Shown here: positions 10,061-22,703 of the stretch, piece after piece
Position numbering within the stretch: the stretch's first letter is position 1
How the letters are laid out: every line of letters begins with the position of its first letter
DNA from: Rhodanobacteraceae bacterium
GTDB taxonomy: Bacteria > Acidobacteriota > Terriglobia > Terriglobales > Acidobacteriaceae
Reading direction: 5' to 3'
NCBI GenBank assembly: GCA_025350865.1
Contig: JANXWZ010000138.1
Coordinates: 1 to 39,964 of the forward strand
DNA length: 39,964 bases
Notes under the pieces: generated by a model
Databases searched by the model: none
What the model saw: the letters and a program-made list of their open reading frames with translations, nothing else
Told to the model about the DNA's origin: nothing
Made by a program: the position numbers and the translations under genes

Positions 10061-11266
10061 TTAGGGCCGGAGGCTGGGAGACTTGAGAGCGCCGCCCAGA
10101 GCCTGCAGGGATCTGGCACGTTCCGGGTCCTGGCGTAGCACTTCGAGCCGGTTGCGCCCAAAGACGAGCAGAACGGCGAACGCAAAACCCGCGATGAGGC
10201 CAACGAGCGAGATAAGCGCCCGGGAGGGTTTGGACTTGTGCAGTGGCAGTTGCGGATAATCGACGATCTGGACGCCGGGGGCGGCGGAAGACTCCTGCAG
10301 GCGGGCGTTTTCGTACTGCCTTGCCATCACGTCAAAGAGCACCTGGTGATACTTGACCTCGCGCTCGAGCTCGACGAAGCGGAGGCTGATGCCGGGGGCC
10401 TGGGCGGCTGTGAGGCCACTACCTGGCGCGGCTTTTGTCCCTGCGGCTCCCTGGAGCTGGCCAAGCTGACCCTCTTCGGTGGCGATTTCGGAGCGAAGGC
10501 GCTGGACGTCGGGGGACTGGTCGGTCTGACCCTTGAGAATGGCTGCCAAGGCGACCTGCTTGGCGCGGATGTCGGCCCGGGTGAGGTCGATTGCGGAGAG
10601 ACCGGAGCGGATCTGATTCTCCGGGGAGACGACTCCGCTGGCCTCCTGGACCTTTTTGAGTTCAACTTCCGACTTTTCAAGGTCGTTCTTGGCCCGCTCA
10701 AATTCCGTTTGAAAGATGGTGCGATGCTGGGCGGCGGCGCTGATGGCGAGGCGATCGTTGAGGTGGGCAAGCGCCGTCAGGTAACTGGAGGCGATGGCCT
10801 GGGCGAGTTTGGGGTCGCGAACCGTGACCGTAAGGGTGACGAATCCGGTGGCGTCGCTGGAGACCGAGGTGACGCTCCGCGCCAGGGTACGGGTCTGTTC
10901 GAGGTCCTTCGCCTTGAAGAAAGTCTGCAGGTCGTTGGCCTGGATGACCTCATCGAGGATGGAGTCGCTGGCCAGCAAACCGGAGTAGATGTTGCTGGAG
11001 GGGGGACGGAGGAGCAGGGCGAGCGGGTTGTCGGAAGGCGGAGCTTGCTCGACGGGAGGCAGAAAGACCGCTCGAGAGGTGAACTGCGGCGTCATGAGGA
11101 AGGCGATCACGAGGGCGACCAGAAATCCGCCAAGCGACATTGCGATGAGGAAGGGCCAGCGCCGGACAAACACGGTGGCGAAGGAGAGCAAATCGACCGG
11201 CGGACCCGAGGCGCTGGGATCGTTCCAGAAGTTGGTCGAGTCCATGATGGCCTGCTCTTTGTCCAT
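10061..11266 (-). CDS. wzz: Wzz-family polysaccharide chain-length regulator
   Basis: The 401-residue protein has a short cytoplasmic N-terminus, TM1 at about residues 36-58 (FLIAMSLGGFLVALVIAFL), and a large periplasmic alpha-helical region with heptad-like coiled coils (about 165-330). TM2 lies at about 350-370, preceded by the proline-rich PQLPLHKSKPSRALI, matching the Wzz P-x2-P...SKPSRA signature. No tyrosine-kinase domain follows, so it is a Wzz/PCP-type subunit without a fused autokinase. It sets chain length of the polymer made by the Wzy-like protein in the inner membrane. It lies 27 nt downstream of the export gene and is convergent with the polymerase gene, 24 bp apart. Confidence 0.88.
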   Translation of the reverse strand: MDKEQAIMDSTNFWNDPSASGPPVDLLSFATVFVRRWPFLIAMSLGGFLVALVIAFLMTPQFTSRAVFLPPVEQAPPSDNPLALLLRPPSSNIYSGLLASDSILDEVIQANDLQTFFKAKDLEQTRTLARSVTSVSSDATGFVTLTVTVRDPKLAQAIASSYLTALAHLNDRLAISAAAQHRTIFQTEFERAKNDLEKSEVELKKVQEASGVVSPENQIRSGLSAIDLTRADIRAKQVALAAILKGQTDQSPDVQRLRSEIATEEGQLGQLQGAAGTKAAPGSGLTAAQAPGISLRFVELEREVKYHQVLFDVMARQYENARLQESSAAPGVQIVDYPQLPLHKSKPSRALISLVGLIAGFAFAVLLVFGRNRLEVLRQDPERARSLQALGGALKSPSLRP

Positions 11267-11293
11267 TTCCGCTCAGGTTCCTTCGACTTACGG

Positions 11294-13789
11294 TTACTTC
11301 AATACGTTGATTGCCGCCGCGCCGAGCCCAAACTGACCGACGATGGATGAGATATCGAGCAGGTTACGGAGGATCGCGCGATGATCCAGTTGCGGCGGCA
11401 CGACGATGGTGTCTCCGGGGAACATGGTGGCGCGTTCGACGGGGCCGTACTGGCTGCTGTAGACGGAGCCATCGGCGCGCAGGATGAAGATGCGGCGCTT
11501 GTCGGCCTGACGGTCGGGGCCGCCGGCCTGGCGCAGGTAGTCCTTCTCGCGGCGACCGTACTGGAAGACGTAGGCGTTGGCGCTGTAGACTTGGCCCTCG
11601 ACGCTGATGGTGGCCGGGGTGCGCGGGATGACGAAGCGGTCGCCATCTTCGAGCGCAAGGTCGGGGATGCTGTCGATTCCGCGGCTGTCGGGTTTTAGCT
11701 CCAGCACGATGCGGCCGAGCGGCACCGCGCGACGCAGGCGGGCTACGGCCTGACGAGCGTCGATTGCGGTGGCGTTGGCGGCAGCGGCGTCGCGGTCATT
11801 GATAGCACGCTGATTGCTGTTCGCGTAGGTGGAGGAGATTTGGGCTTCGAGCGCGTCGGCGTACTCGTTGAGGCGCTGCTGCTGGACGCGGCGGGTGGAG
11901 AGGCGGGTGAACTCGGAGCCGTAGAGGTAGGCGTCAGGAGTGAGGCCGCCGGCGCGGGCGAGCAGGTGGCGAAGGGTTTCACCGGGCGCCACGCTGTAGA
12001 CGCCGGAAGCGATGAACTCGCCTTCGAGGCGGACGAAGCGGGTTTGCTGGACTGAAGGAACTTTCAGGTCGGCGGTGGAGAAGAAGGTGACTACGTCGCC
12101 GACGAGGAGTTCGAGGTTCTGGCTCTGGTCGCCGCGCAGGTAGAGGGCGCCGGGATTGAACGAGATAAGCGAGGTGGTGAGCGACTGCGCATCGAGGCGT
12201 TCGACGACGGCGTAGTTCCAGTCGAGGTCCGGGGCCGACAGGATGAGGTCAGTGGTGGCGGGGAAGGGGCTGTTGGAGACGGTGAGTGCGTCGCCGAGCG
12301 AGGTTCCCCCTTTGATACCGGGAGTGAGGCCGCTGGCTACGGCGTTCTCCGTCGACTGCGTGGCCGCGTTGCCGCGCAGGGCAAGGGACCCGGTAGACGC
12401 GGTGCCAACGGTGGTTTGGCCGCTGTAGTCGCCGATGGTGTTGCCGAGCCCGTTGCGGCGGCGATAGTAGTCGCGGGTGATGAGCTGATCCCGCGACGGT
12501 ACGAGGTCGCTGACCTTCATGTTGGGATGCCAGACGTAGCGGCCGGGCGCGGTGACATTGCCGCGCAGGGTCACGGCGTCGTTATAACGGTTGAGGATAG
12601 CCTCGACGGAGACGATGTCGCCGTTGGCGAGGATGACGTCCTTATCCTGGGGCACATCGACGATGCTGCGCATGGTGTGCTCGAAGATGCGCTCCAGCCT
12701 GACCTGGGTCCCGAGTGCAACGCTGGTCTGGCCGCCAGCCAACAGGATTGCCTGCTTGACGGTGAGGCCGGGGGCGGCTTCGTAGATCGCAGGATTGTTG
12801 ACGCTGCCGGTAACCGCGAACTGCTGGCCGACCGGCGGGATGAAGATGACGTCGCCGGGTTCGAGCGTCACATCCTTTGACTTATCTCCCTTGAGCAGGA
12901 GGTCGTAGAGGTCGAAGTGGACGACGGTATTGGGGCCGCGCTTGAGCTGGATGTCGCGCATGGTGCCCTGGGGGAGCGGGCCACCGGAGGCGAAGATGGC
13001 GTTGAGCAACGTGCTGAGCGAGCTGACCGTGTAGGCGCCGGGGCGGCGGGCGTCGCCGGTGACGTAGACCTGAATGGAACGGAGCTGGCCGAGATTTACC
13101 GTCACGTCGAAGTTGCGGTAGACGCGGTCGAGCTGGCTTTTGAGGAAGGCGGAAAGCTGGTCGTAGCGAACGCCGGCGACATGGAGCGTACCGACGAGCG
13201 GGAAGGCGATATTGCCGGTGCGGTCGACGACGAAGCTGCCCTGCTGATTGACCTGGCCGAAGAGCTGGATGCGGAGCTCATCGCCGGGGCCGATGACGTA
13301 GTCGGAGCCGACGGGGATGTCGGTGAGGTGGGCGAAGGTGTCGGGAACATTATTGAAGATAGCCGCGCCGAAGATGGGTAGCGTGGCTCCGACGGATTCT
13401 GCAACGAGGCGTTGAAATTCTGTGGGAATCTCGGGCTGGGCAGGCAGTTGAGTCGACTGATTCTCTCTTTGGTCGGTTGGGCGGCGATCGTTGGCGGCCT
13501 TTTGATCCGCAGCGAAGCCTTGAGACTGCTGCGTCTGCTGAGTCGCAGTTGTCACGACTGGAGTTGCGCTTAATGGCGTGGGCGCGGATGCCTGTGCCGG
13601 AGCGGCTGGAAGCTGAGCCTGAGCGGATGGGATGAGGAGAGGGAGAATCGACAGGCAGGCTGCCAAAGGGAGCGAAAAGATTCCACGGTGCGCGGCCGGA
13701 GGGATCGATCGAGGCTTCACGACTGCATTCACGGCCAAAGCTTTCCCGTTCTTCCTGCTCCGCTGGGTTGCGGAGAGGGTGAGGTACAT
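11294..13789 (-). CDS. outer-membrane polysaccharide export protein with multiple SLBB domains (Wza-like)
   Basis: The 831-residue protein has a signal peptide (IFSLPLAACLSILPLL...SAQA, cleaved near residue 59) and a Gln/Thr/Pro-rich linker. A polysaccharide-export domain follows at about 138-225 (SDYVIGPGDELRIQLFGQV). At least four SLBB-like units then appear, starting VYVTGDARRPGAY, FAVTGSVNNPAIY, VTLRGNVTAPGRY and FVRLEGEFIASGVY, with a final ISVEGQVYSANAY. Classical Wza is about 380 residues, so this is a long, multi-SLBB form. It should form the periplasmic/outer-membrane conduit for the polymer. No lipobox cysteine is visible. The ATG at 13789 has no clear ribosome site; GTG codons about 20 residues further in would give a more usual signal peptide. 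Confidence 0.88.
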   Translation of the reverse strand: MYLTLSATQRSRKNGKALAVNAVVKPRSIPPAAHRGIFSLPLAACLSILPLLIPSAQAQLPAAPAQASAPTPLSATPVVTTATQQTQQSQGFAADQKAANDRRPTDQRENQSTQLPAQPEIPTEFQRLVAESVGATLPIFGAAIFNNVPDTFAHLTDIPVGSDYVIGPGDELRIQLFGQVNQQGSFVVDRTGNIAFPLVGTLHVAGVRYDQLSAFLKSQLDRVYRNFDVTVNLGQLRSIQVYVTGDARRPGAYTVSSLSTLLNAIFASGGPLPQGTMRDIQLKRGPNTVVHFDLYDLLLKGDKSKDVTLEPGDVIFIPPVGQQFAVTGSVNNPAIYEAAPGLTVKQAILLAGGQTSVALGTQVRLERIFEHTMRSIVDVPQDKDVILANGDIVSVEAILNRYNDAVTLRGNVTAPGRYVWHPNMKVSDLVPSRDQLITRDYYRRRNGLGNTIGDYSGQTTVGTASTGSLALRGNAATQSTENAVASGLTPGIKGGTSLGDALTVSNSPFPATTDLILSAPDLDWNYAVVERLDAQSLTTSLISFNPGALYLRGDQSQNLELLVGDVVTFFSTADLKVPSVQQTRFVRLEGEFIASGVYSVAPGETLRHLLARAGGLTPDAYLYGSEFTRLSTRRVQQQRLNEYADALEAQISSTYANSNQRAINDRDAAAANATAIDARQAVARLRRAVPLGRIVLELKPDSRGIDSIPDLALEDGDRFVIPRTPATISVEGQVYSANAYVFQYGRREKDYLRQAGGPDRQADKRRIFILRADGSVYSSQYGPVERATMFPGDTIVVPPQLDHRAILRNLLDISSIVGQFGLGAAAINVLK

Positions 13790-14262
13790 TGTGTGCTTGC
13801 CCGAAGGCGACAGCCTGCGGTTAGTCTACAGAAAATTGAGGCGAATCCACCATGGAAGGCTGGGGAAGTCGTCTGACCGGCATAAAGTACATGGGTTGAG
13901 CAACATGGGGCTGATCGGAGGCTTTTTGCGGGAGTTTTGAGCTTAGCGGATTTTGCCATCGGGCCGTGTGCCGCAAGAAAATCGACAAAATTGTGACGGT
14001 GTCTGCACATTTTGACGAATTTCGCGTTACATTGAATCCAAGAGTGCTACAGGTTCGTCACCTGTCGCAGCCACAAATACATTCCAGTAGTGTTCGCGTT
14101 CGGTTCATACCTGTTCGCGCAGTGGTGTACCCGTACCTCCGCAGTTGCTGCATTGTGCTGTTGCTGTCCAGGCCTGTCAAACCTCGCTGTTCGTCTTTTG
14201 CGTAACGCCTCACATAGCCCCAACCGGCACTTGCTGTTTTCGTGTATCAGGAGAAGAATCTC
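13790..14262. promoter_or_regulatory. divergent intergenic region between the export gene and the aminotransferase
   Basis: No gene is supported in these 473 bp. The left part resembles coding-GC sequence without a convincing frame; the right half is less GC-rich. A hairpin ACAGGT-TCGTC-ACCTGT lies at 14049-14065, without a T-tract, so it is more likely an operator or leader element than a terminator. TTGACG at 14012 is a possible -35 without a good -10. The only clear signal is the ribosome site AGGAGAAG at 14249-14256. Promoters for both flanking genes must lie here but cannot be fixed by eye. Confidence 0.4.
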
Positions 14263-15540
14263 ATGACTTCCGACTTGCAGAACTGTATCCAAAATGGTGT
14301 GTCGCGCCGGTCTTTCCTGCGGACACTTGGAGCGGCCAGCGCGGCTGCGGCAACACTTCCTGCGATGGCTTATGGCCAGGCGCAGCAGGCAGGTCAGGCG
14401 GCTCGCCGTGCAGGCGGCATGTCCGACATGGGCGAGCGCACACCGCTGGCTGCGGATGTGGTCATCATCAGCTCCAACGAGAATCCGCTTGGACCGGCTC
14501 CGTCGGCTCTGACGGCTCTTTGCGACACGGCTTCGCTGGGCGGTCGGTACCACCAGGAGATCAGCGGCAAGGCAGTCACCGCGTTCAACGAGGCCTTTGG
14601 GCTGAAGCGTGGCTACTCGGCGCTGTTCCCCGGATCGGGCGGTCCTCTGGATCTGGCCCTGATGTCGAACATCGGCCCCGACAAGCCGCTCGTGATGGGC
14701 GACCCCAGCTATGAGCAGGGCACACGCGCTGCGATGACGATGAAGGCTCCGCTGTTCCCCGTGAAGCTGACCCCGACCTACGCGCATGATGTGAAGGCGA
14801 TGCTGGCGGCTCACCCGTCGCCTGGCGCTTACTATATTGTGAACCCGAACAATCCGACCGGCACGATGACCTCGAAGGCCGACATTCAGTGGCTGATCGA
14901 GAACAAGCCGAAGGGTTCAGTTGTGATCGTCGACGAAGCGTACCACCACTTCTCCACCGATGAGTCTGCGATCAGCTTCGTGGCTCAGGACAAGGACGTC
15001 ATCGTGATGCGGACGTTCTCGAAGATCTACGGCATGGCTGGCATTCGGGCTGGTTTTGCGGTTGGTCGTCCGGACCTGCTGCAGAAGCTGCAGAGCGTGT
15101 CGCCTGCGGGCCGCAGCCTGGCCAGCATCTCGATCGTCAGCGCTGCTGCTGTGACGGCGAGCCTGCAGGATAAGGAACTGGTTCCGCTGCGCCGCAAGAT
15201 CAACGGCGACATCCGCGAAGAGACGCTGGCCTTCCTCGCGAAGAAGGGCTACAGGGTTCTTCCTGGCTCGCAGGCGAACTTCTTCATGGTCGATGTAGGC
15301 CGTCCGGGCTCCGAGTTCCATCAGTCGATGCTGGCTGAGAAGATCTCGATCGGCCGCACCTGGGCTGCGCTGCCGAACCACGTTCGCGTCACTGTCGGCA
15401 CCAAGGACGAGATGGCGAAGTTCCAGACGGCGTTCGTCAAGTGCATGGACAAGAAGCCTGCCACGGCGAATGGCGCAGCCGCACTGCACCTGCCGGAGTA
15501 CCACATCCCGAGCGAGCTTTATCGCGGCGAGTTTGCCTAA
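14263..15540 (+). CDS. Tat-exported PLP-dependent aminotransferase, histidinol-phosphate-aminotransferase-like
   Basis: The ATG at 14263 is preferred because AGGAGAAG lies 6 nt upstream; an in-frame GTG at 14242 precedes that site. The 425-residue product starts with a twin-arginine signal (SRRSFLRTLGAASAAAATLPAMA). It continues with a fold-type I aminotransferase: SSNENPLGP, NPNNPTGTM, VDEAYHHF and the PLP lysine K254 in RTFSKIYGMAGIRAG, then a C-terminal Arg in PNHVRVTVG. The motif set matches HisC/class I-II enzymes. A Tat signal fits a cofactor-loaded enzyme acting in the periplasm, unlike biosynthetic HisC in the cytoplasm. The substrate is not predictable; an amino acid or amino-acid derivative is expected. 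A strong terminator follows, so it is probably monocistronic. Confidence 0.88.
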   Translation: MTSDLQNCIQNGVSRRSFLRTLGAASAAAATLPAMAYGQAQQAGQAARRAGGMSDMGERTPLAADVVIISSNENPLGPAPSALTALCDTASLGGRYHQEISGKAVTAFNEAFGLKRGYSALFPGSGGPLDLALMSNIGPDKPLVMGDPSYEQGTRAAMTMKAPLFPVKLTPTYAHDVKAMLAAHPSPGAYYIVNPNNPTGTMTSKADIQWLIENKPKGSVVIVDEAYHHFSTDESAISFVAQDKDVIVMRTFSKIYGMAGIRAGFAVGRPDLLQKLQSVSPAGRSLASISIVSAAAVTASLQDKELVPLRRKINGDIREETLAFLAKKGYRVLPGSQANFFMVDVGRPGSEFHQSMLAEKISIGRTWAALPNHVRVTVGTKDEMAKFQTAFVKCMDKKPATANGAAALHLPEYHIPSELYRGEFA

Positions 15541-15610: not shown

Positions 15611-15976
15611 AATTGCGCTTATCTATGCTTCGTCGGTAGTGTTAGTTATGACGATTATTCAGCAAATCTCGGTGTTTTGTACAAAATCAAGTTAATTCTT
15701 GTTGACACGCCGCAGTTGGTTCGATACCCTCAAAACATTACCAAAAATACATTGTTTAGATACCGTGAATCCAGGGCCCAGTCTCTGAGACTAGCTTGAA
15801 GTGTATCCAAACCTCGTCCGTGTCGGTAACTCGATACCGCGGCAATAACCCTTTGTGCGCCTTGTAAGACTACGTCGTGGTCAAGGTATGCAGAGCCTTC
15901 TCTTCTCTCTTCTTCTGAATTTTTATACTCGTCGACTTGCCGTAAATCGAAGTAGCCGCCTTGGAGGCTTTACCCG
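15611..15976 (+). promoter_or_regulatory. AT-rich upstream region of the oxidoreductase gene with candidate promoter
   Basis: No gene is supported in these 366 bp. It is clearly richer in A+T than the surroundings, especially 15610-15780. A TTGACA at 15702-15707 is followed after 17 nt by TACCCT at 15725-15730, a perfect -35 with a poor -10. If used, the leader would be about 240 nt. A short inverted repeat AGTCTC-T-GAGACT lies at about 15780. The ribosome site GGAGG at 15963-15967 ends the region. Confidence 0.4.
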
Positions 15977-17266
15977 ATGGACAGCAGCACCGCATCGCTT
16001 TTGCGTTCGATGAATCGTCGAAAATTCCTGCATGGTTCCGGTGCGCTTGCAGGCATGGGAGCACTTGGACTTACGGGTTGCGCGCCTGCCAGGCGAGTGG
16101 CTGCCCCGGCTGTCGGGACTGCGCCCCCACTTCCTTTCTATGACGAGTACACGCCGTTGGTGCCGATCCGGGCGCATGCGGATCGCATCTTCCGCATCAC
16201 GGTTTGCCTGCGGCCGTTCCGTGCGGCGGGTCCACGCAGAGACATTGAAAAGATCGGCAGCAAGACCATCGTGCACAACTACGGGCACGGCGGCAGCGGG
16301 TGGTCGCTCTCCTGGGGTGCGGCTGCGGGTGCGACCAAGAGTGCGATGGCGGCGGCTGAGGGTTCGAACGAAATCGCCCTGCTGGGCGCGGGTGCGATCG
16401 GCCTTACCTCGGCCACGATGCTGCAGCGCGCAGGTGCGAAGGTAACGATCTACGCCAAGGAGCGCGCGCCCTATACGCGCAGCTCACGAGCGACGGGCAG
16501 CTGGACTCCGGACTCGCGAGTGGCGCTTGCCTCGGCTGTGACGCCCACATTTGCGGCGGAGTGGGAAGAGATGGCGCGGGCTTCATTCTTCATGTATCAG
16601 AGCTACTACGGTATGGCGGGGACACCGATCGAGTGGACCGATCGCTGGGGGTTGAGCGACGCGCCTCGCCAGCCGGGAGCGCGCGCCGCTGGAGTCGATC
16701 CGAATGTGCGGACTGACAGGCCGGCTCCTGTGCATGACTTCATTCGCCTGAACGATCGCATTGCGGACCTTACGCCGCGACCCATTGTGATGCCGGCGGG
16801 ATCCACTCCGTTCCCGACGCCCTATGTCACTCGTAGTTCGTCCATGACGTTTAATGTGGCGGATTATTCTCGCCAGTTACTTACGGATTTTCTGATTTAT
16901 GGCGGCAAGATCGAGACGCGTGAGTTTCATTCGCCGCAGGAGCTGACGGAGTTACCGCAGAAGGTGATTGTGAACTGCCCGGGGTACGGCGGCAGGGCTC
17001 TGTGGGGCGATGAGTCGATTATTCCGGTGCGCGGCCAGATTGCGTGGCTGATTCCGCAGGAGGATGCGCATTACGGCCTTACCTACAAGGGTTTGAGTAT
17101 GTTGTCGCGGCGCGACGGCATCGTGATGCAATACAGCAAAGGCGGCGAGGATGAGGGGTGGAACGACACCAACGAGACTCCGGATCGCACATTTGCCGAA
17201 GAGGGCGTGAACGTGCTGGCCGAACTGTATAGCCGCATGGCTGCGATGAAGAAGAAGCCCGCTTAG
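15977..17266 (+). CDS. Tat/lipobox FAD-dependent oxidoreductase, circularly permuted D-amino-acid-oxidase-like
   Basis: The 429-residue product has the twin-arginine signal NRRKFLHGSGALAGMGALGLTGC, whose end LTGC is also a lipobox, so a membrane-anchored periplasmic protein is likely. The flavin motifs of the D-amino-acid oxidase family are all present but in rotated order. The block that normally ends the family, CLRPFRAAGPR (77-87) plus HNYGHGGSGWSLSWG (100-114), comes first. The FAD dinucleotide motif LLGAGAIGLTSA (135-146), which normally starts it, comes next. The chain ends after IIPVRGQ (about 348-354) and SRRDGIVMQYSKGGEDEGW. Oxidation of an amine or D-amino acid to imine with H2O2 or another acceptor is expected from the family; the substrate is unknown. 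GGAGG 9 nt upstream supports the start at 15977. It lies between an exported aminotransferase and a TonB receptor. Confidence 0.85.
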   Translation: MDSSTASLLRSMNRRKFLHGSGALAGMGALGLTGCAPARRVAAPAVGTAPPLPFYDEYTPLVPIRAHADRIFRITVCLRPFRAAGPRRDIEKIGSKTIVHNYGHGGSGWSLSWGAAAGATKSAMAAAEGSNEIALLGAGAIGLTSATMLQRAGAKVTIYAKERAPYTRSSRATGSWTPDSRVALASAVTPTFAAEWEEMARASFFMYQSYYGMAGTPIEWTDRWGLSDAPRQPGARAAGVDPNVRTDRPAPVHDFIRLNDRIADLTPRPIVMPAGSTPFPTPYVTRSSSMTFNVADYSRQLLTDFLIYGGKIETREFHSPQELTELPQKVIVNCPGYGGRALWGDESIIPVRGQIAWLIPQEDAHYGLTYKGLSMLSRRDGIVMQYSKGGEDEGWNDTNETPDRTFAEEGVNVLAELYSRMAAMKKKPA

Positions 17267-17353: not shown

Positions 17354-17376
17354 AGCGCATCACCAAAAAATGCGCT
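17354..17376 (+). repeat. inverted repeat in the leader of the TonB receptor gene
   Basis: AGCGCAT (17354-17360) and ATGCGCT (17370-17376) flank an A-rich 9-nt loop, 57 nt before the receptor start. It could be an operator or a leader hairpin; no T-tract follows. Confidence 0.35.
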
Positions 17377-17432
17377 CATTTGATCGAACTAACTTGTTCC
17401 AGGATTTAGCAGATTTATTTGGAGGAGTCCTT

Positions 17433-20400
17433 ATGAAATTGTTCCGGTCATTCCAACTTCTATCGCTTCTGTTCATTGCACTGGTGTGCGGGTCGAGGCT
17501 TCAGGCTCAGACCAACTTCGGCAGTGTCCGCGGCGAAGTGAAAGATACACAAGGCGCAAGCATCCCGAATGCCAAGGTTACGCTTACGAACCAGGAGACC
17601 AAAGTGGAGCGCGTCTCGGCGACCAACGACAGCGGCATTTACCAGTTTGGTGGCGTCGATCCGGGAACCTATAAGGTCACGATCGGGATGCCGAACTTCA
17701 AGACCTTTGACTCGGCCGGCAATGTGGTGACGCTGGGCAGCATCGACACCGTGGATGCGGTGCTGACGCTTGGCGCGACGAGCGAGACGGTCGAAGTGAC
17801 TGCGGATACAGTGCAATTGAACACGGCGAACGCTTCCGGCGGCCAGACCTTCAGCGAGCAGCAATTGCAGGACCTGCCCAGCCTGGGCCGCAACCCGTTC
17901 CTCTTTGTGGCGCTGGATAGCAACGTCGTGACGTTGGGCGACCCACGCTATGTGCGCGCGGAAGACCAGACCGGCGGTTCCCAGGTCTCGGTTGCTGGCG
18001 CACCCAGCTTCACGAATAGCTATGTTGTCGACGGAATTCCGGTCTCTACTTCAGCCGGCGGATTGACCTTTGTTCCCTCGCCTGAGGGTGTGTCGGAATC
18101 CAAGGTGCAGGCCAACGCCTACGATGCGGAAGTAGGACGCACGGGCGGCGGCGTCTTCGCCACCTCTTTGAAGTCCGGCACCGCGCAGTATCACGGTGTT
18201 CTGTATGGGGAAACTCGTCAGACGCCATGGGCCGCGAATCAGTGGTACAACTTCAACGGTTCCCCGACGCCCGACAACACGACGTATCTTTACTCTGGGG
18301 CATTTGGAGGCCCGTTGCTTCCGGGCTGGGTGAAGAAGCCGCATTGGCTGGACAACACATTCTTCTGGGTTACGGAAGAAGGCTATCGGCAGGGTCAGCC
18401 GAATGTGAGCAACACTACGTCGTACTTTCTACCTACTGCGGCAGAACGGCTCGGCGATTTCTCCGCCTACGCTCCGAAGGATGGCAGCAAGACGACGTGC
18501 CCGAAGGATCCGACGACGAATGCACTGCTTCCCGGAATTGGGGGTGGCGCGTGCCAGATTCTGTATGACCCGACACAGCCATTCGCCGGGACTTCGCGGG
18601 GCGTGACCTTCCTGACGGAGTACGGTTCGAACAAGATCCCTACTGGAATGATCAGCGCGATCGGGCAGTATGTGGCGAATGCCTTTCCCGCACCGCAGAC
18701 GTCAACCATTTATGGCGCTGGCGCATACAACTACTCGAACGCCAACATCAGCTTCAAGACGCGGTCGGACGAGTATATCGGCAAGCTGGAGCATACCTTC
18801 GCGCCGTGGTGGACGGCTGCTGCTTCGTATGTCCATAACGCGATCCAAGAGCCCGCGCCCAACGTGATTCAGGCACAATACGCCAACGCCACCAAACTGT
18901 TACGCTATACGGATTCGACGGCTGTCAACAATACGTTCACGATCAATCCGACGACGCTGCTGACTGCTGCTTTCGGATTCAACCGATACTACAGCGCGGC
19001 GTTCCAGTACTCTAGCGGGTTTAATGCAGCTACGGGCTTTGGCGGGACGGGTTTCAGCAAAGCTTATGCCAGCCTGCTGCAGTCGCCGACCTTCCCAGGC
19101 TTCAGCTTTTCGAACTTCACCAACAGCGGATCGCTGGGGGCGTCGAACGGTGGCCCAACGGTGAATGCGTCGAACAATATCGCGATCGTGCTGTCGAAGA
19201 CGATCAATCGCCACAACGTCAAGGTTGGGTATACGCTGCGCGCGATGGCGGTTTATACCAATCCCACGGGCGGCGGTGCTGGTGCCTTCGTCTTCAGCGG
19301 TCAGAACAGCAACGCTTCCGGCAGTTCCACGAGCACGAACGGCTCGCTGGCTGTAGCCGATCTTCTGATGGGGCTGCCCTCGTCGGGGTCCTTGACGCTC
19401 AACACCGGCGTCTTCATCAACCAGGCCAAGTACAACGCCGTCTTCGTTCAGGACGACTTCCGGTTGAACTCGAAGCTGACCATGAACCTGGGTCTGCGCT
19501 ACGAGTATGAGCTTGGGCAGTCGGAACGCACCAATCGATTTACGGTTGGTTTCGATCCGAAGGCGACCGCATCGTATGTGAATGCGGCGGGTGCAACGGT
19601 GAACGTAAAGGGTGGTCTGGACTTCGCGGGAGTGGGCGGGGCACCGATCCACTGCTGCAATAACGGCCACACCAAGTTTTCGCCTCGGATCGGCGTGGCG
19701 TATCAGCCGTTCAAAAACACGGTGTTCCATGCGGGTTACGGCGTGTTCTACGCTCCGGTCGCAATCGCGACGGGCGCGACGGCGGGCTACTCGCAGGTCA
19801 GCACCTACAGCCCGGGCAAGACGACAACGGCGCTGGCTACAGGTCAGAACTCCTACTTATCCAATCCATTTGCGACTGGCGTACTTTTGCCGACGGGGAA
19901 CACGCTTGGCCCGCTCACCGGTATCGGCGGTCCACTGGGCAGCACGACGATTGCCTCAGCCGTGCAGGAGTTCGGTCGCCGCTATCCGTTCATGCAGCAG
20001 TATTCGGTGGATGTACAGCAGCACCTTCCATATGACGTGGTGTTCAAGGTCTCGTACATTGGAGCCCACGGGCGCAACTTCCTGAATGCAACCAACATCA
20101 ACCAACTTCCGGACAGCGTACTGGCTACTTACGCCGGGGGGACGACTAATCTTTCGACGCAGGTCACGAACCCGTATTACGCCACCAAGGTAGGGGGGCT
20201 CACTTCCACTGGCGTGTTGGCCGGAACCACTGTTGCACAGGGACAGCTTCTTTTGCCCTATCCTCAGTTCGGTTCAATCACGGTTGCGCGGTCCAGCGGA
20301 TATACGAACTACAATTCGCTGGCGCTGAAGGCGGAGAAGCGAACCAAACAGGGCTTGACGCTGCTCAGCACCTACACGTGGGCGTCGAACTGGGACAACC

Positions 20401-21143
20401 TGTGGTCGACGGGTTCGCAGATCTACAACAACTTTGGCCCGCAGGACGCAAACAATCCGAAGGGCGAATATGCACGCTCGCTGAACAGCATCCCGAACCG
20501 GTTTACGGCAGCTATCACCTATGAATTGCCGTTCGGCCGTGGCCGCAAGTTCCTGGCTCATCCCAGTGGATTTGCCGGCGGATTGCTGGAAGCGGCGGTG
20601 GGTGGTTGGCAGGTCAACGACGAGTGGGTGATCCAGAACGGCGTGCCGGTCTCGATTTCACAGTCGGCTCTTAGCTCCGGAACCTACGGCGTCACGGGCA
20701 TCGGCGGCACGGTACAGCGCCCGAACCTGGTTGGCGATATCCACTCGGCGTGCGGCTCCGGTCGTCCGCAGGGACGGTTGGGAGCCTACGGAACCGGATT
20801 GTCGGAGACGTCCTACCTGAAGGCCAGCGCGTATACGGCAGCCTTGCCGTATACCTATGGCAATGCACCCCGGACTCTTCCATGCCGGGTTCCGGGAACC
20901 AACAGCTCTTCCATCTCCGTCAACAAGACGTTCAAGATTCACGAGCGGTTCAACTTTCAGTTCCGCGCCGAGGCTTTGAACGCCTTCAACACGCCGCAGT
21001 TCGGCGCTCCGACCAGCACCTTGACGGTTGCGGGTACGGGTCTCGCGTCGGCTCCGACGGTGAACCCGGCCTCGTTCGGCAACATCACGACGACGGTTGG
21101 TTTTGCACGCATCATCCAGTTGGGAGGACGGCTTAGCTTCTAA
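17433..21143 (+). CDS. TonB-dependent receptor with N-terminal carboxypeptidase-regulatory-like domain
   Basis: The ATG at 17433 has GGAGGAG ending 6 nt upstream and begins a clean signal peptide (MKLFRSFQLLSLLFIALVC...LQAQ), so the in-frame ATG at 17370 is rejected. The 1236-residue protein has a carboxypeptidase-regulatory/Cna-B-like beta-sandwich at about residues 28-110 (GSVRGEVKDTQGASIPNAKVTLTN). A plug-like region follows (LPSLGRNPFLFVALDSNVV, VDGIPVS), then a very long beta-barrel with alternating aromatic strands, ending IIQLGGRLSF with the terminal Phe expected for outer-membrane insertion. Such proteins form large paralogous sets in acidobacteria and probably import oligosaccharides or peptides. 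The ligand is unknown. It lies 166 bp after the oxidoreductase gene and ends at a strong terminator. Confidence 0.9.
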   Translation: MKLFRSFQLLSLLFIALVCGSRLQAQTNFGSVRGEVKDTQGASIPNAKVTLTNQETKVERVSATNDSGIYQFGGVDPGTYKVTIGMPNFKTFDSAGNVVTLGSIDTVDAVLTLGATSETVEVTADTVQLNTANASGGQTFSEQQLQDLPSLGRNPFLFVALDSNVVTLGDPRYVRAEDQTGGSQVSVAGAPSFTNSYVVDGIPVSTSAGGLTFVPSPEGVSESKVQANAYDAEVGRTGGGVFATSLKSGTAQYHGVLYGETRQTPWAANQWYNFNGSPTPDNTTYLYSGAFGGPLLPGWVKKPHWLDNTFFWVTEEGYRQGQPNVSNTTSYFLPTAAERLGDFSAYAPKDGSKTTCPKDPTTNALLPGIGGGACQILYDPTQPFAGTSRGVTFLTEYGSNKIPTGMISAIGQYVANAFPAPQTSTIYGAGAYNYSNANISFKTRSDEYIGKLEHTFAPWWTAAASYVHNAIQEPAPNVIQAQYANATKLLRYTDSTAVNNTFTINPTTLLTAAFGFNRYYSAAFQYSSGFNAATGFGGTGFSKAYASLLQSPTFPGFSFSNFTNSGSLGASNGGPTVNASNNIAIVLSKTINRHNVKVGYTLRAMAVYTNPTGGGAGAFVFSGQNSNASGSSTSTNGSLAVADLLMGLPSSGSLTLNTGVFINQAKYNAVFVQDDFRLNSKLTMNLGLRYEYELGQSERTNRFTVGFDPKATASYVNAAGATVNVKGGLDFAGVGGAPIHCCNNGHTKFSPRIGVAYQPFKNTVFHAGYGVFYAPVAIATGATAGYSQVSTYSPGKTTTALATGQNSYLSNPFATGVLLPTGNTLGPLTGIGGPLGSTTIASAVQEFGRRYPFMQQYSVDVQQHLPYDVVFKVSYIGAHGRNFLNATNINQLPDSVLATYAGGTTNLSTQVTNPYYATKVGGLTSTGVLAGTTVAQGQLLLPYPQFGSITVARSSGYTNYNSLALKAEKRTKQGLTLLSTYTWASNWDNLWSTGSQIYNNFGPQDANNPKGEYARSLNSIPNRFTAAITYELPFGRGRKFLAHPSGFAGGLLEAAVGGWQVNDEWVIQNGVPVSISQSALSSGTYGVTGIGGTVQRPNLVGDIHSACGSGRPQGRLGAYGTGLSETSYLKASAYTAALPYTYGNAPRTLPCRVPGTNSSSISVNKTFKIHERFNFQFRAEALNAFNTPQFGAPTSTLTVAGTGLASAPTVNPASFGNITTTVGFARIIQLGGRLSF

Positions 21144-21170: not shown

Positions 21171-21209
21171 AAGGGGGCACCGAGCGATCGGTGGCCCCTT
21201 TTGTTTTGA
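21171..21209 (+). terminator. Rho-independent terminator of the TonB receptor gene
   Basis: A 13-bp stem with one mismatch (21171-21183 with 21188-21200, loop GCGA) is followed by TTTTGTTTTG, 27 nt after the stop codon. Confidence 0.88.
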
Positions 21210-21318: not shown

Positions 21319-21383
21319 GGAGTGACTCCCAGAAGTAGATGGCGGTATTGACAGCTATGTGGAGACACCATAGTGTGTTGGCC

Positions 21384-22703
21384 ATGATCAAGAGTTGCTC
21401 AATTGCTGGTTTGCTGACGCTTTCTGCGTTGGCGTTGCATGCTCAGGCTCCTGCCACGCCACAGGCAACTGCGGCGCCTCCGCCGAGCGTGGTGGCGGGG
21501 ATTCCAGTGAACTATGACGAGGCTAAAACAGGAACGTACACGCTGCTCGATCCGCTGAAGTTCGACGACGGCAAGCCGGTGAAGACGGCGAAGGATTGGA
21601 TGGAGAAGCGGCGGCCGCAGATTGTCGCTTTGTTCGAGAGCCAGCAGTATGGCAAGGCTCCGGGGCGGCCCGCAGGCGAGAGCTTCGATGTGTATGACAA
21701 GGGCACGCTGGCGCTGGATGGCAAGGCCATCCGCAAGCAGGTCACGATCTATCTTTCCGGCGACAAACAAGGGCAGAGTATAGAGCTGGTGATGTATCTT
21801 CCAGCGGCGGCTAAGAAGGCTGTGCCGATGCTGCTGAGTATCAATTTTGGCGCGGTGCAGAGTGCGGTGGACGATCCGGGCATCAAGCCGGAGACGGTGT
21901 GGGATCCGAAGACGAATACGCGGATCGCTCCGAGTGGGCGCGGGTTTGGAAAGATCAACATCGCGGCGTTTCTGGATGCGGGAATCGGCGTGGCGACGTT
22001 CTATTACGGCGATGTCGATCCGGATTATCTGGATGGGTTTTCGAATGGGATTCGCGCCAAATATTCAAAGGCAGGGCAGGCGGAACGCGCGGGCGACGAC
22101 TGGGGCGGGATCGCGGCGTGGGCCTGGGGGATGAGCCGGGTGCAGGACTACTTTGAGACGGATAAGTCTGTCGATGCAAAGCGGGTGGCCATTCACGGCG
22201 TGTCGCGGCTGGGCAAGACGGTGATGTGGGCGGGGGCGCATGACCAGCGATTTGCGGCGGTGATTGCAAGCTGCTCGGGAGAGGGCGGCGCTGCGCTGAG
22301 CGCGCGGGATTACGGCGAGACTGTGGCGCATCTCACGGCGGCGGGGCGCTATCCGTACCAGTTTGCGGCGAACTACGGGAAGTGGGGTGGGTTCCCGGAT
22401 AAGGCTCCGATGGATGCAAATATGCTGGTTGCGCTGATCGCTCCGCGGCCTTTGCTACTGCAGACGGGGACGACGGACGTCTGGTCCGATCCGAAGGGGG
22501 AGTTCCTGGCGGCGGTTGCGGCTGGGCCGGTGTACAAGCTGCTGGGCAAGCAGGATCTGGGGACGGATGTTTGGCCGGCGGCGAAGGTGCCGATCTTCCA
22601 CGACCTGGGGTATTACATGCACGATGGCGGGCACGGCATGGTTCCGGGCGATTGGGATGTTTACGTGGAGTTTTTGAAGATGCATTTGCACTCGGAGCGG
22701 TAG
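21384..22703 (+). CDS. secreted CE15-type glucuronoyl esterase-like hydrolase
   Basis: The start at 21384 gives a clean signal peptide (MIKSCSIAGLLTLSALALHAQA); in-frame ATGs at 21339 and 21357 are possible. The mature part reads TYTLLDPLKFDDGKPVKTAKDW and WMEKRRPQIVALFESQQYGKAPG, typical of the CE15 N-terminus. The nucleophile elbow is GVSRLGKTVMWAGA (family form G-C/H-S-R-x-G-K, with Val here), then SGEGGAAL, IAPRPLLLQTGTTDVWSDPKGEF and the catalytic His in DGGHGM. CE15 enzymes cleave ester bonds between lignin alcohols and glucuronoyl groups of xylan. The acid in SGEGG lies three residues beyond the usual fungal Glu position, as far as can be judged by eye. About 440 residues is a normal length. 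No carbohydrate-binding module is seen. Confidence 0.85.
   Translation: MIKSCSIAGLLTLSALALHAQAPATPQATAAPPPSVVAGIPVNYDEAKTGTYTLLDPLKFDDGKPVKTAKDWMEKRRPQIVALFESQQYGKAPGRPAGESFDVYDKGTLALDGKAIRKQVTIYLSGDKQGQSIELVMYLPAAAKKAVPMLLSINFGAVQSAVDDPGIKPETVWDPKTNTRIAPSGRGFGKINIAAFLDAGIGVATFYYGDVDPDYLDGFSNGIRAKYSKAGQAERAGDDWGGIAAWAWGMSRVQDYFETDKSVDAKRVAIHGVSRLGKTVMWAGAHDQRFAAVIASCSGEGGAALSARDYGETVAHLTAAGRYPYQFAANYGKWGGFPDKAPMDANMLVALIAPRPLLLQTGTTDVWSDPKGEFLAAVAAGPVYKLLGKQDLGTDVWPAAKVPIFHDLGYYMHDGGHGMVPGDWDVYVEFLKMHLHSER

Follow-up and report, generated by a model that had tools for sequence, protein, structure and literature searches.

Introduction

The closest described relatives of the gene reported here are D-amino-acid oxidase (DAAO; pig enzyme, PDB 1kif) and D-aspartate oxidase (DASPO; human enzyme, PDB 6rkf). 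The gene lies at positions 15,977–17,266 of the plus strand of contig JANXWZ010000138.1 (assembly GCA_025350865.1), from a Rhodanobacteraceae bacterium placed by GTDB in the Acidobacteriota; the whole 39,964-nucleotide stretch analysed is called the window. Its product shares with DAAO and DASPO sequence homology, the predicted fold, the flavin adenine dinucleotide (FAD) motif, the block containing LRPxR and HNYGHGG, and the position of the carboxylate-binding arginine. It differs from them in having its chain opened elsewhere, in carrying a leader of the twin-arginine translocation (Tat)/lipobox type and, within the group to which it belongs, in the replacement of one active-site tyrosine. 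Other amine oxidases and dehydrogenases of the superfamily (glycine oxidase, sarcosine oxidase and dye-linked proline dehydrogenase) show the canonical order in alignments with the model of the window protein, and to our knowledge lack an HNYGHGG-type block. With Tat-exported lipoproteins the window protein has in common an RRxFL motif, a hydrophobic stretch and an LTGC lipobox; we know of no permuted flavoprotein among them.

Catalytic cores are seldom circularly permuted in nature. We consider it highly probable that the window gene, taken as a whole, encodes a natural circular permutant of the DAAO/DASPO fold. The superfamily is known and its chemistry presumably so, while the chain order seems to be undescribed. 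Searches of NCBIfam and of PDB sequences turned up neither a curated model nor a solved structure for a permuted family: the matches in NCBIfam were partial, weak and far below cut-off, and in the best 60 of 65 rows of a PDB profile search each best stretch covers one part of the protein, never the permuted order in a single stretch. No naturally permuted D-amino-acid oxidase appears among the matches listed from the open-licence PMC literature (titles and starts of abstracts). One article names a "D-amino acid oxidase" among proteins released by Asaia bogorensis (PMC12502724), and the enzyme in another is heterologous and unrelated (PMC8102297). Annotated plasmid copies of the permuted gene are labelled merely "FAD-dependent oxidoreductase", and the family is thus masked by automatic annotation.

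A D-amino-acid-oxidase-like core in swapped order

The open reading frame (ORF) encodes 429 residues. A GGAGG element at 15,963–15,967 (+), a probable ribosome-binding site 9 nt upstream of the ATG, backs this start, yet many relatives start at a methionine equivalent to residue 12. Membership of the superfamily is supported by a match to Pfam DAO (PF01266) at 67.1 bits against a cut-off of 27.9. In the canonical linear order the FAD motif comes first and the LRPxR block last. Here the GxGxxG motif (GAGAIG, residues 137–142, 16,385–16,402) follows the LRPxR and HNYGHGG block (residues 78–106), and the order is swapped. The translation bears out the order of motifs given in a preliminary description of this DNA: a leader, LRPFR (78–82), HNYGHGG (100–106), GAGAIG, IIPVRGQ (348–354) and RRDG (378–381), with the stop codon directly after residue 429. 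Both homologous blocks are present once each and neither is missing. That description had named a second, conventional LRPxR/HNYGHGG block at the C-terminus as an observation that would speak against permutation, and none is seen. In a six-frame scan of the window HNYGHG occurs once on the plus strand (16,274) and HPYGHG once on the minus strand (10,838), and further plus-strand LRPxR matches, at 21,206 and 30,293, are remote from the gene.

The swap is directly visible in alignments. Against PDB entry 7ct4, a D-amino-acid oxidase, phmmer places residues 71–123 on 320–372, 129–163 on 22–57 and 329–356 on 211–240, and the pieces are in swapped order in each of the three alignments with solved structures that phmmer listed. 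A set of 13 canonical bacterial enzymes (a fourteenth, L152, was left out) was compared with the window by tblastn. All 13 match the gene as two order-swapped pieces, the N-terminal pieces within 16,331–17,242 and the C-terminal pieces within 16,118–16,354; one enzyme (L153) has an additional third, weak piece (E 0.007). On the strength of the phmmer and tblastn alignments we reject a chance motif.

We also rotated sequences and scored them with a profile of the 13 canonical enzymes. Native order gives the window core (residues 61–429) 74.1 bits, and a rotation that opens it at residue 127 gives 124.6; the four top rotations start at 125–131, rotation at residues 111 and 141 gives 107.6 and 111.7 bits, and scores fall as low as 53.3 elsewhere. 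A slightly different core gives 73.9 bits natively and 119.4 rotated. Among 109 permuted proteins the score rises in 101, with a median gain of 53.6 bits, and at least 290 of the 321 profile positions are spanned by none natively and by 99 once rotated. The best rotation starts about 10 residues or less from the expected join in 101 of the 109. Two canonical enzymes, L029 and L120 (both profile members), score highest at or beside their natural start. The spacing from His100 to Gly137 is 37 residues in the window protein and 34–40 in 103 of 105 permuted ORFs, and the length of the join equals the tail plus the head of canonical L029, as for old termini that have been joined.

An assembly or gene-prediction artefact has a negligible probability and is ruled out by the identical order on about 100 separate contigs, complete plasmids among them. 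A different reading takes the protein as a conventional FAD domain that lost its true C-terminal part and carries an unrelated or duplicated LRPxR/HNYGHGG-like N-terminal extension. The best Pfam stretch, which covers only residues 133–405 (DAO positions 2–284 of 353), speaks for it. The N-terminal block is, however, 36–55% identical to the C-termini of all 13 canonical enzymes, and no permuted protein inspected lacks its arginines. These two observations, together with the modelling described below, make an added domain very unlikely, and we have rejected it.

Predicted structure

In the AlphaFold model of the whole protein the transposed former C-terminal block (residues 61–127, 16,157–16,357) has a mean predicted local distance difference test score (pLDDT) of 93–98. 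Modelled alone it is poor (pLDDT 69.7, predicted template modelling score 0.42), and this dependence on context is at odds with an unrelated extension. The preliminary description had held that an N-terminal block folding outside the FAD domain would argue against permutation; no such arrangement was observed, the block being modelled with high confidence within the whole protein. After the block come the former N-terminal region and the centre of the oxidase (residues 131–422, 16,367–17,242). Model residues 131–420 superpose on DAAO 1–269, and sequential aligners left block 61–127 unplaced; the structure-alignment rows mainly cover residues 128–422 and are uninformative on other folds.

The join lies at 16,310–16,369, where the helix of the former C-terminus (112–126) runs into the strand of the former N-terminus (from 132). 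By the permutant explanation, the FAD strand that once began the protein would follow on the helix that once ended it, with at most a little added linker. The new opening would lie between the LRPxR strand and the final helix of the centre (404–426, 17,186–17,254), now the C-terminus. The circular permutation put forward in the preliminary description is thus well supported by sequence, by profile rotation, by the model and by about 100 relatives.

Distribution of the permuted order

At E 0.001, and with weak partial matches included, 41 of 297 genomes sampled from the phylum match the permuted protein. One scan of GTDB genomes, with seed patterns that include HNYGHGG, returned at least 553 relatives, of which the best 80 were kept. 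All 80 kept loci are permuted (69 Pseudomonadota, 7 Acidobacteriota, 1 Verrucomicrobiota and 3 without assignment), a figure that is not an unbiased rate of the permuted order since the loci were ranked by likeness to a permuted query. The preliminary description had proposed a survey of homologues, and the same swapped order was found in 105 of 109 ORFs classed by motif order (loci L001–L111, the window gene itself being L001); the other four are canonical. Two further loci, L007 and L008, were missed by the pattern, having threonine at the His100 position, and are permuted on inspection. No viral contig matched the permuted protein.

The genome of the window also encodes a permuted paralogue (L002), which is 47% identical and has no visible leader. 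Other Acidobacteriota have canonical-order enzymes (L028–L031 and L117–L119). Because both orders survive in bacteria, even in one phylum, a comparison of relatives can show how chain order affects folding, FAD loading and export; the family also supplies permuted scaffolds of natural origin on which to build amino-acid biosensors and biocatalysts.

Three loci have unusual arrangements. Another acidobacterial genome contains canonical-order oxidase fragments (G152:C6:11155-12210, L129), the larger within a 733-codon open frame and perhaps a fusion. On Mesorhizobium plasmid pOM4 (L145:4974-6037) the permuted gene is split exactly at the FAD motif into two overlapping coding sequences, possibly by a frameshift. 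In a Kozakia plasmid cluster a second, canonical-order DAO flavoprotein (L113:262-1479) is found a few genes ahead of the permuted gene, adjoining genes for beta-lactamase-fold and S9 hydrolases.

Leader sequences and order of events

The window protein begins with a putative Tat-type lipoprotein leader (residues 1–34, 15,977–16,078). In line with the Tat/lipobox leader of the preliminary description, RRKFL (14–18) and the lipobox LTGC, ending in Cys35, are present by eye, and Pfam TAT_signal scores 20.4 bits, below its cut-off of 22.7. Cys35 is followed by a low-confidence tether (residues 35–60, 16,079–16,156), with pLDDT block means of 47, 45 and 65 for residues 31–60. A twin-arginine motif is found near the start in 101 of 105 permuted ORFs and a strict lipobox in 61, using a simple pattern that was run on permuted ORFs only and for which start codons were picked to fit. 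The four ORFs without a match are L051 (cut by a contig end) and L052, which have twin-arginine-type or partial leaders by inspection, and L002 and L072, which have none. Most relatives examined thus look as if they bear an export tag. A plasmid search added leaderless permuted proteins from Nonomuraea (L112), Bradyrhizobium elkanii (L144) and Rhizobium ruizarguesonis (L146), and the two-piece Mesorhizobium copy (L145) is also leaderless.

A tree was built from 32 chosen permuted proteins (of the 109, rotated) and the 13 canonical enzymes. A branch with 100/100 support separates the permuted proteins from the canonical ones, and the first to split off among the former are the three leaderless proteins; rooting on the canonical enzymes is an assumption, and L112 and L147 are unusual in residue composition. 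With this root, one permutation followed by one gain of a leader would be the simplest history. Since leaderless permuted proteins branch first, the permutation is most simply older than the leader. The permutation would most likely have had a single origin and then spread among bacteria, with the Tat leader, often with a lipobox, gained later by most members.

This order of events bears on the further idea, made in the preliminary description, that the permutation may have allowed the oxidase to be exported; put as a cause, the permutation would have been selected for freeing an N-terminus for an export signal. Nearly all sampled permuted proteins have a Tat-type motif and canonical ORFs mostly start near the FAD motif, as the idea would predict. 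The early branching of the leaderless proteins from Nonomuraea, Bradyrhizobium and Rhizobium nevertheless speaks against it, as do L072 and the paralogue in the window's own genome, which are permuted without a visible leader. We regard export as an improbable cause of the permutation and set it aside on the strength of the branching order.

Active site and proposed chemistry

Arg79, which we take to be the carboxylate-binding arginine equivalent to Arg283 of the pig enzyme, is kept in 109/109 permuted and 13/13 canonical aligned proteins, and Arg82 in 109/109 permuted ones. Both are also present in L007 and L008, and no locus among L001–L111 was discarded for lack of either. His100, His104, Trp113 and the FAD glycines are kept in the 109 as well; the histidine motif served to select these proteins, and its conservation among them is partly built in. 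The column presumed by alignment to correspond to pig Tyr228 is tyrosine in 10 of 13 canonical enzymes, in all three leaderless proteins and in 6 of 88 members of the window's group. A second, acidobacterial group of 18 has histidine in 11 and tyrosine in 6; these groups were assigned by the analyst and are sampled in part by the tree. The window's group instead conserves Tyr366 (84/88) and Ser180 (88/88). Because the tyrosine is replaced and a GGT motif is changed, D-amino-acid oxidation may not hold for this group. Judged from sequence, the protein is likely to oxidize a carboxylated amine with the help of FAD, and the substrate of the window's group may be something other than a free D-amino acid.

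Adjacent same-strand genes were tallied as 70 proteins from the 80 kept loci. They include cytochrome c (10), beta-lactamase-fold hydrolases (6), TonB receptors (5), S15 and S9 peptidases (3 each, perhaps counted on identical proteins), the D-Ala-D-Ala-carboxypeptidase family S11 (2), MgtE (3) and HflX (3); the last two appear to stem from three loci of Bradyrhizobium and look like incidental neighbours. A cytochrome c neighbour was confirmed at L075, L104, L108 and L109, and neighbours at L077, L078, L082 and L083 contain CxxCH. The cytochrome c gene and the permuted gene follow one another within a few bases in Sphingomonas vulcanisoli and in acetic acid bacteria (L075, L077, L082, L083, L104, L109, and Kozakia L113). 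Because the genes nearly abut, cytochrome c is suggested as the electron acceptor in these bacteria. A RidA-family gene at a single locus (L040) fits an imine product, as this family is of the imine-hydrolase type.

These observations raise a variant that is compatible with permutation, namely that the window's group are periplasmic dehydrogenases coupled to cytochrome c, which no longer oxidize free D-amino acids and whose substrate is a different carboxylated amine, such as a peptide or an N-substituted amino acid. The change of tyrosine to serine or asparagine, the altered GGT, the conserved Tyr366 and Ser180 and the cytochrome c, peptidase and beta-lactamase-fold neighbours all fit this variant, whereas Arg79 is retained and the window copy has no adjoining cytochrome c gene. 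We think its chances fall a little short of even.

For the permutant as we propose it, chain order, homology, the predicted fold, the single grouping in the tree and the leader motif are results of computation; beyond these, we infer that the window copy would fold with FAD in the cytoplasm, be exported by Tat and be tethered in the periplasm as a lipoprotein. An amino acid or related carboxylated amine, bound by Arg79, would be oxidized to an imine, whose hydrolysis would give a keto acid. The electron acceptor would be O2 or, in some lineages, a cytochrome c. A broader picture is rather doubtful as a whole: one ancient permutation may have given rise to a large family, as yet without a name, of flavin dehydrogenases that are lipid-anchored in the periplasm and have a remodelled substrate pocket, partnered with secreted peptidases and passing electrons to c-type cytochromes rather than producing H2O2, with a leaderless sister group in the rhizobial cytoplasm beside a thiamine diphosphate (ThDP) enzyme and a berberine-bridge-type flavoenzyme.

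Several findings weigh against the permutant explanation or parts of it. Rotation brings no gain in 8 of the 109 proteins (L010, L014, L077, L083, L112, L113, L144 and L146), which we suspect is due to long tails or divergence, and in 8 of 109 the best rotation peaks away from the expected join. The packing of block 61–127 in its canonical place is a prediction that rests on AlphaFold confidence. Threonine replaces His100 in L007 and L008, the window protein has Ser374 in the column of the active-site tyrosine, and the GGT motif is altered in its group. Nameable cytochrome c neighbours come from Acetobacteraceae and Sphingomonadales, and the neighbour tallies are raw counts. The aminotransferase and Oar-like protein encoded beside the window gene match 0 and 3 other permuted loci, respectively, by tblastn at E 1e-15, in a search where many loci hold just 1.5 kb flanks.

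Genomic context

On rhizobial plasmids the leaderless permuted gene is part of a conserved set, lying at L144 and L146 between genes annotated as an FAD-binding oxidoreductase and a ThDP enzyme. At L144 Pfam confirmed the flanks as a berberine-bridge-type flavoenzyme and a ThDP enzyme.

The immediate neighbours of the window gene include none of the tallied types except an Oar-like outer-membrane protein. Upstream by 436 nt, at 14,242–15,540 (+), is a pyridoxal phosphate-dependent aminotransferase with a Tat leader, of the PRK09105/PtaA-like group (443.5 bits, just below the PRK09105 cut-off of 444). Downstream by 103 nt, at 17,370–21,143 (+), is the Oar-like outer-membrane beta-barrel, with a carboxypeptidase-regulatory domain. 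An operon of aminotransferase, permuted gene and Oar-like gene was considered and rejected, as the neighbours barely recur; looser blastp clusters link the aminotransferase to two other loci. Further away, the product of 21,339–22,703 (+) matches the fungal glucuronoyl esterase domain PF22244, and polysaccharide export genes for Wzz/GNVR and Poly_export/SLBB proteins occupy 10,061–13,789 (−).
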